A stretch of DNA of 64,000 bases from Thermoguttaceae bacterium (GCA_025062105.1 JANXAQ010000121.1:1-64000), one strand, 5' to 3'; positions 43,790 through 48,219 are shown, counted from the stretch's first letter. Numbers and translations are program-made. The notes: a model not told the origin generated them from the letters alone.

Positions 43790-46700
43790 TTACCGGGCGG
43801 AGGTAGGGGATTCGGGTTTTGCTTCGCCGGAAACGCCGGCCAACCACAACAAAATCGGCGAAGCGATATAAATGGAACTGAAGGTTCCAGTAACGACGCC
43901 AAAAAGCATCGTAAACGCAAAGGCATGAATCCCTTCCCCACCTAAGATATATAAGATCAGCAGCCCCATGATCACCCCACCACCGGTAATGATGGTGCGG
44001 GCCAAAGTGTCATTGACGCTGCGGTTGATCATCGCTTCAGTAAGCCAGGGGGCTTTGCCCTTGACCTCTCGGATGCGGTCAAAGATGACAATGGTGTCGT
44101 TGAGCGAATAACCGATCAGCGTCAAAAACGCTGCCAGCACGTCCAAGCCGATCTTCATCTCGTCGATCAACAGGAAGCCGAACAAAGGAGCCAACCAATA
44201 GGTCAAAGCCACTGCCCCTAAAGTAATCGCGACGTCATGAATCAAGGCGACCACGGCGGCCAACCCATAAACTAGACGCTGAAAACGGACCCAGATGTAC
44301 ACAACGATGCAAAACAGACTGGCAACCAATGCGGCCACCGCCTGGCGCCTGGTCCCGCCTGCTACTTTGCCCCCGATTTCGTTCGAAGAGGGAAAATAAG
44401 GCGACTTCTGAAGTCGAGCATTGACATTTTCCAACACTTTTTTGGCCTCTTCGACTGGCAAAGCCAATTTGACCTCCCAATCCGTAAAGGCAGTAGAAAT
44501 CCCTGGCACATACTCTGGATGGCTCAGTTCAAAGGCCACCGCAGCCGTATGGCTCTCTTGAAGCGCCTGTTGCATGATGGCTTTCAGGCGATCATAGTCG
44601 ATCCGGTGGGTGAAATTCAGTACAGCTTTGGTGCCACCGACAAAAACGTCCACTTTGGCGGAGGCCTGGGGTTTGGCCGAGGCTTCCGTCGGCTGAGCGG
44701 AGGACTTCGGCACCATCGGTTCCGCAACTTTGGCAGACTCGGGCGCTTCCGGCACTGGCTGAGTAGGTAGGGCCGAAGATTCTGCAGCTGCTTTAGACAC
44801 AGGAACTTCCGATAGTTTCGGAGCCTCGGGAGGTGCTTTGCTGGAAGCAGCCGAAGCTTCCCCTGCCGTCTTCGGCTCGGAGGGTTCGGCCGATGCTGCC
44901 GGGGGCTTGGCCTCAGAAGAAGAATCCGGCCCAGCCTTAGACGCAAGGGGTTGCGAAACCTTCGACATTTCCAACGCTTTATCCGACGCTTTAGAAGTGT
45001 CCGAACCGGTCGCCTGGAGTTTCGAGTCAGGCAATTCCGAAGCCTCTGGAGAACTTGCCGGTTGGGGAGCGGTCTGGTTAGCCAGCCACTGCTCAGCTGA
45101 CCAGTGCTCGGCCATAGCCACTGCTAGAAAGCTCTGGTCTTCTATTGCCGCCGTTGTCCATCCCAAACAAGCGGCTGCTGCCTGAGCAGACGAAGCCAGT
45201 CGGAACCGGTCTGCCACTAAACCGGGGAAGACCACCGGTGCTAACTCCTGAGAATGCCAGGAGGTTTTTTCACCGGCCGGTTGGGGCGGTTGTTTAAGTT
45301 GTTCCTGCGATGAGCCAGATGGTTCTTTTGCCGGGGGGGCTGGTTGATCTTTTGCCGAAGGGGCAGGTTGTTGTTTTTCGGAGGGGGCTAGGGGTTCTTT
45401 TCCAGGAGGGGACGATGGTTCTTTTTCCGAGGCAGTAGGAACGGAAGACGGCAAAGAGCTTGGCTTTTCGGTAGGAGGAACCTCCGGTTTGGTAGGAGGA
45501 ACTTCCGGTTTGGCTGACGCAGGAGCCTCGGGTGGGGTAGGAGGTTTTGGTTCGGCCGGTTTGGATTCCGGCTTGGGCTGAAGCTGCGCAGAAGCAGGTT
45601 TTTCGGCAACCTGCGCCTTCGGGGCAGAGGCCTCCGCCTTTGGAGAAACTTCTGGTTTTTTCTGGGAAGGTTCGCCTTTAGGGAGCGGTTGGGGTTTGGG
45701 CAGTTCGGATGGTTTAGCCGAGGCTTCCGCAGGAGCAGTCTTTTGAGAAGATTTGGCCTCTGGTTTATCTTTGGCTTCTGGTTTATCAGGGGGACGTACT
45801 TTTTGCGCTGAAAGGGTCTCCAAGGATTTAATAGAAAAGCTGTTAGCGGCCAGTTTGTCGCCAAATTGCTTAATGAGGATTTCTTCGACCCATTCGACAG
45901 CTGTATAGGGTTGGCCGGTTTTCGGATTGATAACTGGTTGACCGCTGTGAGGATCCGTTGGCGGCTGCAACGACGTATTGATCATGAACCGAAGACCTTT
46001 GGGTTCATCCAGGAGTTTCACGTCGCTGACGGCCAAATCAGGTAAAACCTCGGACAAACTCCGACGAATCTGGGCAATATCTTGAGGCTCTTTAAAGACT
46101 ACTTCCACAGAAACACCGCCAGTAAAGTCGATATTAAACAGTCCCTGGCCTCTGGCCCAAGCACCTATCAGACCGATAAGGATCAGGCAGCCAGAAACGC
46201 CCACCGCCACATACTTGGCGCCTAAGAAATTGATGTCGGTGCGTCCGAGCATTTTGAGCATTCGGATTCGGTTGATCCAGCCCTGGCGCTCCATCAGATC
46301 AAAGACCACCCGAGCGCAGAACACACCTGTATAAAGGCTCAGCAGGACGCTCAAAAGCAGGGTGATGGCAAAACCTTTGATTTGATCGGTGCCGACCACG
46401 TAAAGCACCACCGCGGTAATTAAGGTGGTCATATTGGAGTCAATAATGGCGGACATGGCCCGGTGGAAGCCGTTGCGAATGGCCATCCGAAGGGTAGAGC
46501 CCCGCTCCAATTCCTCCCGCATCCGCTCATAAATCAACACATTGGCATCCACCGCCATACCCACGCCCAACACAAGACCCGCAAACCCCGAAAGTGTCAG
46601 CTCCGCATTGATGGTAATCATCACAGCCAAGACTAAGGCCAAGTTCATCAGCATGGCTAAGCAGGCCACCAAGCCAGCCGCCCGATAATAAATGGCCATA

Positions 46701-47803
46701 AAGACAAACACAAAGACAATCGACAAAATCGTAGCGATCGTGCCGCGGCGGATTAAGTCTTCGCCCAAGGTGGGGCCGGTAACCAACTCGCTGATGGGAC
46801 GCTCAGTCAAGGCGGCGGGTAACTGGCCGGCTTTTAAGACCCGAACCAAATCATCCACATCTCGTCGGGTGAAATTGCCTGTGATTTCGCCGCGATCATA
46901 GATGGTGCTTTCAATATTCGGGGCCGAATACAACGCTCCGTTTAGGATGATGCCTAACCGACGGCGAAAACCAGAGGTCTCATCCGGGACATGATCGCCA
47001 GTCAATCGACTAAACAATTGAGCACCTGTAGAGTTGAACGCAAACTCCACACAAGGCCAACCCCGACGATCAATCCCTGGCCGAGCATCCACCAGATAAT
47101 CGCCCTTGACATGATACGGATCTTGAAAGACCAAGACCTCCAGCGTTTTGTTTCCGCGTTCATCGGTGATGGTGCGCCAGCGAATTTCGCCGTCGCCTTG
47201 GCCCGCCTCGGCAGTCTCCCAGGCCCGACCGGCAAACTCATGTTCCTGCCCCCTTTCCACCGGCACCCACCAACCCAAACGGTTGCCTTGAGAATCAAGA
47301 ATATCTCGGCTTAGGGGATTTTTCTCCGCCAGTTCAATAATCTGAGGATGATCCCGCTGATTGCAGAGAATGCGGAACTCGAGACTACCGGTCTGGCTGA
47401 TAATGCGTTTGATTCGCTCCAGCTCCGCCTGTTCGGCCTGAGGGATGATCACCTCGACCTGATTTTCGCCATATTGGCGCACCGTTACTTCCCGTTGGCC
47501 GCCGGGGTTAACACGCCGCATAATAGCGGCTACCAACTGCTCCATATCCACCCGTTGCGAAGGATCATGTTTGGCAGGATCTACTTCGTACACCAAAATC
47601 ACCCCACCTCGAAGATCAATGCCCAATCCTGGCGGCCAACGCGTGAGCAAAATCGCTCCACCCGTTAACACAGAAAATAAAATGACCGAAAATTTCCAGC
47701 CATAATCCGGCATCCGGAGGCGCCCAGCTAAGTACATGCCTCCGAGCCAAGAAATCACTAGAAGCACCAAGGCAACCAAAAAATCCCACATTAATGGAGA
47801 CAT
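43790..47803 (-). CDS. secDF: Fused SecD-SecF translocase subunit with long low-complexity insertion
   Basis: A 1,337-residue inner-membrane protein that uses the proton gradient to help SecYEG complete protein export. The SecD part (residues about 1-520) has the first helix, the P1 periplasmic domain (LGIDLRGGVILVYEV, then QTGSLEFRIL) and TM 2-6 (GMAVDANVLIYERMREEL). The SecF part begins near 535 (NIDFTGGVSVEVVF) and ends with GYSLNDTIVIFDRIREVKG. Between about 668 and 1048, inside the SecF periplasmic loop, lies a roughly 380-residue insert rich in Pro, Ala, Lys, Glu and Ser with PTKPEVPPT-type repeats. It is last in tgt-yajC-secDF. SecDF fusions are known; I do not know of such an insertion. 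Confidence 0.93.
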   Translation of the reverse strand: MSPLMWDFLVALVLLVISWLGGMYLAGRLRMPDYGWKFSVILFSVLTGGAILLTRWPPGLGIDLRGGVILVYEVDPAKHDPSQRVDMEQLVAAIMRRVNPGGQREVTVRQYGENQVEVIIPQAEQAELERIKRIISQTGSLEFRILCNQRDHPQIIELAEKNPLSRDILDSQGNRLGWWVPVERGQEHEFAGRAWETAEAGQGDGEIRWRTITDERGNKTLEVLVFQDPYHVKGDYLVDARPGIDRRGWPCVEFAFNSTGAQLFSRLTGDHVPDETSGFRRRLGIILNGALYSAPNIESTIYDRGEITGNFTRRDVDDLVRVLKAGQLPAALTERPISELVTGPTLGEDLIRRGTIATILSIVFVFVFMAIYYRAAGLVACLAMLMNLALVLAVMITINAELTLSGFAGLVLGVGMAVDANVLIYERMREELERGSTLRMAIRNGFHRAMSAIIDSNMTTLITAVVLYVVGTDQIKGFAITLLLSVLLSLYTGVFCARVVFDLMERQGWINRIRMLKMLGRTDINFLGAKYVAVGVSGCLILIGLIGAWARGQGLFNIDFTGGVSVEVVFKEPQDIAQIRRSLSEVLPDLAVSDVKLLDEPKGLRFMINTSLQPPTDPHSGQPVINPKTGQPYTAVEWVEEILIKQFGDKLAANSFSIKSLETLSAQKVRPPDKPEAKDKPEAKSSQKTAPAEASAKPSELPKPQPLPKGEPSQKKPEVSPKAEASAPKAQVAEKPASAQLQPKPESKPAEPKPPTPPEAPASAKPEVPPTKPEVPPTEKPSSLPSSVPTASEKEPSSPPGKEPLAPSEKQQPAPSAKDQPAPPAKEPSGSSQEQLKQPPQPAGEKTSWHSQELAPVVFPGLVADRFRLASSAQAAAACLGWTTAAIEDQSFLAVAMAEHWSAEQWLANQTAPQPASSPEASELPDSKLQATGSDTSKASDKALEMSKVSQPLASKAGPDSSSEAKPPAASAEPSEPKTAGEASAASSKAPPEAPKLSEVPVSKAAAESSALPTQPVPEAPESAKVAEPMVPKSSAQPTEASAKPQASAKVDVFVGGTKAVLNFTHRIDYDRLKAIMQQALQESHTAAVAFELSHPEYVPGISTAFTDWEVKLALPVEEAKKVLENVNARLQKSPYFPSSNEIGGKVAGGTRRQAVAALVASLFCIVVYIWVRFQRLVYGLAAVVALIHDVAITLGAVALTYWLAPLFGFLLIDEMKIGLDVLAAFLTLIGYSLNDTIVIFDRIREVKGKAPWLTEAMINRSVNDTLARTIITGGGVIMGLLILYILGGEGIHAFAFTMLFGVVTGTFSSIYIASPILLWLAGVSGEAKPESPTSAR

Positions 47804-47874: not shown

Positions 47875-48219
47875 TTATTTCTCCTCCTCGGAAGGCGCTT
47901 CCTGAAGCACCCGGGCAATGGCATTTAGACTGACGCGGATTTTGGTATTGGTAGCTTCGTCCACCTTCAGGGTAACTTCATCGGCCTCCCGATGCACGTT
48001 GGTAACCACCCCGTAAATGCCTCCAATAGTAATAACTCGGTCGTTTTTCTTCAAGGCGGCCAACATCTCCTGACGTTTGCGCTGTTCTTTGCGCTGCGGC
48101 ACAATCAGCAAAAAATAAAACAAAAAAACAATGGCCAACATCGGGATCAACATGGCCCAGATGCTAGCACCTTCCTGCTGGGCTAAAAGCGACGGTACAG
48201 AAAACCAACCTCTATCCAC
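47875..48219 (-). CDS. yajC: Preprotein translocase subunit YajC
   Basis: A 114-residue accessory subunit that associates with SecDF. A single membrane helix (AMLIPMLAIVFLFYFLLIVP, residues about 22-41) is followed by the basic RKEQRKRQEM segment and the conserved LKKNDRVITIGGIYGVV. The start is GTG 48219 with AAGGAG about 7 nt upstream. The gap to secDF is 71 bp. Confidence 0.95.
   Translation of the reverse strand: MDRGWFSVPSLLAQQEGASIWAMLIPMLAIVFLFYFLLIVPQRKEQRKRQEMLAALKKNDRVITIGGIYGVVTNVHREADEVTLKVDEATNTKIRVSLNAIARVLQEAPSEEEK

Follow-up and report, generated by a model that had tools for sequence, protein, structure and literature searches.

A SecDF of a Thermoguttaceae bacterium with a SecF loop predicted to hold two P4 domains joined by a long disordered linker

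Introduction

Proton movement through SecDF requires the Asp region of TM4 in SecD and an Arg region of the SecF transmembrane domain. In the solved SecDF proteins, SecD and SecF are fused, the fold is of the RND type, and the periplasmic loop between TM7 and TM8 contains one P4 domain of about 100 aa. In E. coli, SecD and SecF are separate chains, also with a single P4 and without a long linker. Two other groups of proteins have partial likenesses to the protein described here. In RND efflux pumps, the TM7-TM8 loop holds two small alpha/beta porter subdomains. TonB and TolA have a flexible periplasmic stretch, rich in Pro, Lys and Glu or in Ala, that is driven by a proton-powered machine in the inner membrane.

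We analyzed a secDF gene in a 64,000-nucleotide stretch of DNA from a Thermoguttaceae bacterium (the whole stretch is called the window below). The top matches of its product, by both sequence and fold, were Thermus thermophilus SecDF (3aqp, 5yhf) and the entries 5xam, 5xan and 5xap. The solved proteins have one P4 in the TM7-TM8 loop, whereas the protein from the window has a P4 (P4a), a 387-aa linker and a putative further P4 (P4b).

Results

Membership in SecDF

We found that positions 43790-47803 of the minus strand, the strand of every feature given below, contain one open frame of 1337 aa with no internal stop. The translated protein scored 384.1 bits against TIGR01129 (SecD; cut-off 244.4) and 316.5 bits against TIGR00966 (SecF; cut-off 160), in agreement with an earlier note that had called the gene a SecDF fusion from the DNA sequence. 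Pfam matches were to SecD_1st, SecDF_P1_head, Sec_GG and SecD_SecF_C. The SecD half (P1 region and TM1-6) together with TM7 occupies residues 1-558 (46130-47803; TIGR01129, Pfam and alignment to 3aqp), and SecF TM8-12 occupies residues 1144-1325 (43829-44374; SecD_SecF_C, TIGR00966 and AlphaFold2). With the solved SecDF proteins it shares the fusion of SecD to SecF, the RND fold, P1, the DFTGG motif and the transmembrane motifs GMAVDANVLIYER and GYSLNDTIVIFDRIRE. The SecD TM4 Asp region (GMAVDANVLIYERMREEL) and the SecF Arg region (GYSLNDTIVIFDRIRE) align with the same motifs in 3aqp.

A putative yajC, the neighbor expected beside secDF, lies directly upstream on the same strand (47875-48219; assigned by sequence pattern and place). 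A yajC neighbor is common to this locus and to E. coli, and the SecF transmembrane domain of the E. coli holo-translocon (5mg3) matches that of the window protein. A search with PF02355 found this to be the sole clear SecDF of its genome, the other match (G000:C273) being weak at 24 bits. As the sole clear SecDF, next to a yajC-like gene, it is presumably a working export protein.

By every sequence criterion that we tested, the protein belongs to SecDF; its loop anatomy departs from that of the solved members. In place of a single P4 of about 100 aa there are two domains and a linker, 585 aa in all from DFTGG to the GGKVAG of TM8, and alignment to the solved structures left a gap of ~500 residues in the SecF periplasmic loop. 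The content of the TM7-TM8 loop varies, and so we regard the protein as a SecDF variant and not as excluded from the family. Another oversized SecDF fusion, PRK12911 (NF009540; a model of 1403 positions), matched its SecD part, but the score of 303 bits was far under the cut-off of 1878.

Two predicted domains in the SecF loop

The SecF loop is predicted to contain two folded domains. We used AlphaFold2 with residues 520-1337 (the SecF half, without SecD P1) and 53 relatives as input. The model consisted of a complete P4a (confident over residues 563-663), approximately 390 residues of low pLDDT, a complete P4b (1058-1143), and TM8-12. P4a spans residues 559-664 (45812-46129; AlphaFold2, hhalign and profile) and P4b residues 1053-1143 (44375-44647; AlphaFold2 and profile), the latter running into TM8; both have the order beta-alpha-beta-beta-alpha-beta. 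The pLDDT was mostly >92 in P4a and about 92-98 in P4b. A model of a relative with only ~24 linker residues (L106 of genome G005) again contained both domains, with a mean pLDDT of 90. As a prediction, a TM7-TM8 loop with two ferredoxin-like P4 domains in tandem and the linker between them is well supported.

The earlier note had the insert splitting the SecF periplasmic domain, with its left border at NTSLQPPTDPHSG. Because both models give two complete domains, we rejected this reading: the insert joins domains and splits none. The true border is ~45 residues farther on, between FSIKSLETLS and AQKVRPP, and the stretch before it is, in the model, the last helix and strand of the folded domain.

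We compared P4a and P4b using secondary structure and profiles. P4a is by these measures an ordinary SecF P4: hhalign against single-copy P4 domains of other phyla gave a probability of 96.7, and the P4a profile of the order matched 12 of 12 single-copy P4 domains. Direct hhalign of P4a against P4b of the order detected no similarity (probability 5.6). Kinship was visible only when the P4b profile was run on the first domains of other planctomycetes. Among 82 first-domain halves (80 of them planctomycete) from SecFs with enlarged loops, 24 matched with E<=0.1, and for 5 of these E was <=1e-3. None of five shuffled sets gave a match, and a reversed set gave 2 at E<=0.1 and none at <=1e-3. This similarity, weak but control-tested, moderately supports kinship of P4b with P4a, that is, a duplication.

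Foldseek matched the model of the SecF half to the RND efflux pumps AcrB, MexB and MtrD. These pumps, unlike SecDF, export drugs and have no disordered linker. TM-scores were low and the rmsd was large, and the likeness in tandem domains is therefore only an analogy.

The linker and its growth

The insert, given as roughly 380 residues in the earlier note, measured ~387 aa (residues 666-1052; 44648-45808; delimited by pLDDT and identity). Its described Pro/Ala/Lys richness was confirmed: over residues 666-1056, Pro and Ala each make up 18%, Ser 14%, and Lys and Glu 10% each. The disorder that it was suspected to have is predicted by a pLDDT mostly under 50. The PxKPE-like repeats that had been noticed correspond to in-frame tandem repeats found by repeat search: a 24-bp (8-codon) array in linker arm 1 (45321-45432), a 21-bp (7-codon) array of KPEVPPT-type repeats (45470-45544), and an 18-bp (6-codon) repeat, DKPEAK (45752-45787). 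These in-frame repeats point to slippage as the way in which the linker lengthens.

The linker arms diverge while the rest of the protein keeps 70-97% identity within the genus. Arm identity was mostly 26-38%, with one pair at 48% in arm 1, compared with 80-83% for P4a, 70-74% for P4b and 91-97% for TM8-12.

Distribution in the order and the phylum

We found that a long linker is not unique to the window and, in the loci that we aligned, recurs across the order. Absence from close relatives had been named beforehand as grounds for giving up the idea; both same-genus genomes carry the insert, in single open frames on independent contigs, with P4 regions of 586 aa (G001) and 467 aa (G002). Across the order the P4 region was 188-586 aa, with the window and G001 at the long end, after two shorter rows were set aside (L084, at a contig end, and L100, a second copy in G007). 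At least 50 aa separated the P4 domains in 42 of 60 aligned loci. Linker length was about 20 to 390 residues, the window being at the long extreme.

A quick tree required 11 changes of linker state, at least 8 of them forced by well-supported (starred) branches, a count that is approximate because the tree is quick and two rows (L084, L100) are odd or mislabelled. On this tree the linker has been repeatedly gained or lost in the order. Little or no linker was present in the same-family relatives G005, G024 and G028 and in a clade of six, and the linker is therefore not needed for basic SecDF function. G007 has two SecDF genes, one with linker and motif (L081) and one with a short P4 and no linker (L100). 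Four loci of order family f16 (L188, L189, L094, L205) have an extra insert of ~80 aa inside P4a; the one tested, from L188, had a weak likeness to the flagellin hook IN motif (PF07196, 18.9 bits, below the cut-off of 22.7).

Judging from anchor distances, nearly all of the sampled Planctomycetota have an enlarged P4. The anchor gap was 161-477 aa in all but two loci, compared with 63-73 aa in Proteobacteria, Omnitrophota and other loci with an ordinary P4. The two exceptions, L120 and L148 (G114, G062), have an ordinary short P4 and gaps of 76 and 86 aa. Outside the phylum, two loci had enlarged loops (WOR-3 and Myxococcota, 205 aa).

Other families of the phylum have loops of other kinds. 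In L142/L181, L146 and L147 (G112, G125, G096; one family), the SecF loop of about 410-430 aa appears by eye to be several P4-like units in a row and not a disordered linker. In L166, L169 and L182 (G108, G092, G073; another family), a Pro/Ala/Asp-rich linker preceded by LLPAAYGQDAP lies elsewhere, within the first P4 and ahead of its second helix. This looks like an independent acquisition.

A hydrophobic island and a motif shared in the order

The window linker contains a hydrophobic island that the earlier note did not mention (residues 847-909, 63 aa, TSWHSQELAP...SFLAVAMAEHWSAEQWLAN; 45077-45265; from alignment and composition). Of the 50 L/M/F/W/I/Y/V/C residues in the linker, 20 fall within the island (hypergeometric p = 1e-5, with boundaries chosen by eye). 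AlphaFold2 predicted two weak helices in it (891-899 and 903-909) and no confident structure. In the alignment of congeners, TSWHSQELAP...RFRLASSAQ of the window corresponds to TSFQSQEGFQ...LPLASSAH, and identity over the island is only 25-32%.

Large hydrophobic residues were clustered in one island at p<=0.01 in 16 of 42 linkers and at p<=0.05 in 24 of 42. For the window linker alone, island tests gave p=0.20 and p=0.024. An initial measure, mean hydropathy (p<=0.01 in 9 of 44), is weak because it counts Ala as hydrophobic, and it was replaced by this clustering measure and by an EM motif search. The EM search of the 42 linkers gave a likelihood score of 438, compared with 178-206 for six shuffled sets, and a consensus of about QSRxDLPPxxLLAxAD, which several families of the order carry, further Pirellulales genomes among them. 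A 30-aa motif query matched four genomes, once each and always in the SecDF frame, and had no match in two others, one of which was the window's own. The window island is at the position equivalent to the motif; its sequence has diverged and matches the motif poorly. The motif analysis was exploratory and was made after the sequences had been seen. Within these limits, a short motif is conserved inside otherwise fast-evolving linkers and, since it is also hydrophobic, some binding role for the linker is plausible; the substrate binding suggested in the earlier note may be one such role.

Planctomycete YajC N-termini often read LLAQ or LLADD followed by Ala, Pro or Gly (window 47875-48219; L037, L061, L091, L108, L110). 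By inspection they resemble the SecDF linker island, which raised the idea that the island might have been copied from YajC; the likeness is short, and we treat it as a curiosity.

Discussion

We favor, with a probability of roughly 0.5, the notion that this SecF has been rebuilt, with tandem P4a and P4b on a disordered entropic tether that presents a docking peptide. The ~387-residue linker would let P4a (on TM7) and P4b (on TM8) move independently in the proton-driven cycle, and the short hydrophobic element near its middle would be the docking peptide, held close to the Sec channel exit. The likeliest docking partner would be on the Sec side (SecD P1, the YidC periplasmic domain, YajC or a periplasmic chaperone) or a transiently emerging substrate. 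A long leash on a two-module P4 could widen the capture radius for the partner or substrate. Linker length would be free to drift because selection, in this proposal, acts only on tethering and on the motif. Periplasmic contacts of this kind are credible because SecF contacts the P1 of YidC, with P4 and the P1-base moving together (PMC8669966), and because the periplasmic domains of SecDF and YidC contact BAM in E. coli (PMC7695460). Several results speak against this proposal: the window island matches the motif poorly and is little conserved among congeners, AlphaFold2 gave the island no confident structure, same-family relatives do with little or no linker, and direct hhalign detected no similarity of P4a to P4b. 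A more specific version seems improbable to us: the motif would be a pseudo-substrate or chaperone-like hook, gripped and released by SecD P1 and the paired P4 with the proton cycle, making the linker a tethered capture line of Pirellulales SecDF. If true, this would be a power-stroke or ratchet layout, which is not known from any SecDF described so far.

The linker might instead be a neutral or nearly neutral spacer, expanded by slippage and tolerated at a permissive P4a/P4b junction. We regard this as a serious rival, possible although clearly the less probable of the two. The in-frame 18-, 21- and 24-bp repeats, the fast divergence and indels, the spread of lengths from about 20 to 390 aa with its forced gains and losses, the near absence of the linker in G005, and acidic and basic contents that vary widely among relatives are all as a spacer would have them. 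A spacer does not account for a motif conserved across families of the order far over shuffled controls, with a single match, in SecDF, in each of the four genomes in which the query found it, or for the clustering of hydrophobic residues in 16 of the 42 linkers. Another account, an error of assembly or a frameshift, has in its favor that repeat-bearing, low-complexity DNA is prone to mis-assembly. We give it almost no weight: the frame is open throughout, and similar linkers occur in many unrelated assemblies, complete genomes included. We rejected assembly error because both same-genus genomes carry the linker on independent contigs, at the same place and of similar length.

A periplasm-spanning arm like that of TonB or TolA, through which the movement of SecDF would reach BAM or other partners, is unlikely in our view. 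The PxKPE-like repeats, which we take to be akin to TonB-type spacers, speak for it, and this SecDF shares with TonB and TolA a flexible low-complexity periplasmic stretch. However, TonB and TolA have a single N-terminal transmembrane segment and a free C-terminal domain at the outer membrane, whereas the linker is internal in the model, with P4a and TM7 on one side and P4b and TM8 on the other. Both its ends are thus held at the inner membrane, and the chain is a loop. With its ends anchored, with neither length nor charge conserved, and with no globular tip or outer-membrane-binding domain, a reach across the periplasm, the other role suggested in the earlier note, becomes less likely; some relatives also have no linker. 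The contact of E. coli SecDF with BAM, through which SecDF passes on proton-motive force, would fit such an arm, but it is assigned centrally to SecD P1 (PMC7695460). Less probable again, and by a wide margin, is that SecF is cleaved within the island, at a protease site or one resembling a signal peptide, into two non-covalent halves with one P4 each. Many islands do end in hydrophobic-A-x-A-[DEQ] (AVAMA/EHW in the window, LALA/DD and LLAQA/E in relatives), a looser pattern, chosen post hoc, was present in 25 of the 42 linkers, against an expectation of 12.1 and a highest count of 20 among 500 shuffles, and LLPAAYGQDAP occurs in independent linker lineages. Most islands, however, are broken (STDP or ADQD mid-island) and lack an unbroken hydrophobic core of the length that a normal signal peptide needs.

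The earlier note knew of no SecF with such an arm; likewise, neither a tandem P4 nor a long SecF linker was described in the open-licence papers that we searched. The mechanism of SecDF, an export motor that is almost universal, has been drawn from single-P4 proteins. The enlarged, apparently doubled P4 that most of this phylum has would provide natural variants with which to test the role of P4 and the partners of the SecF loop. An order with up to ~390 disordered residues and a conserved motif between the P4 copies would serve the same use, and would give studies of planctomycete envelope biogenesis a concrete feature to address.
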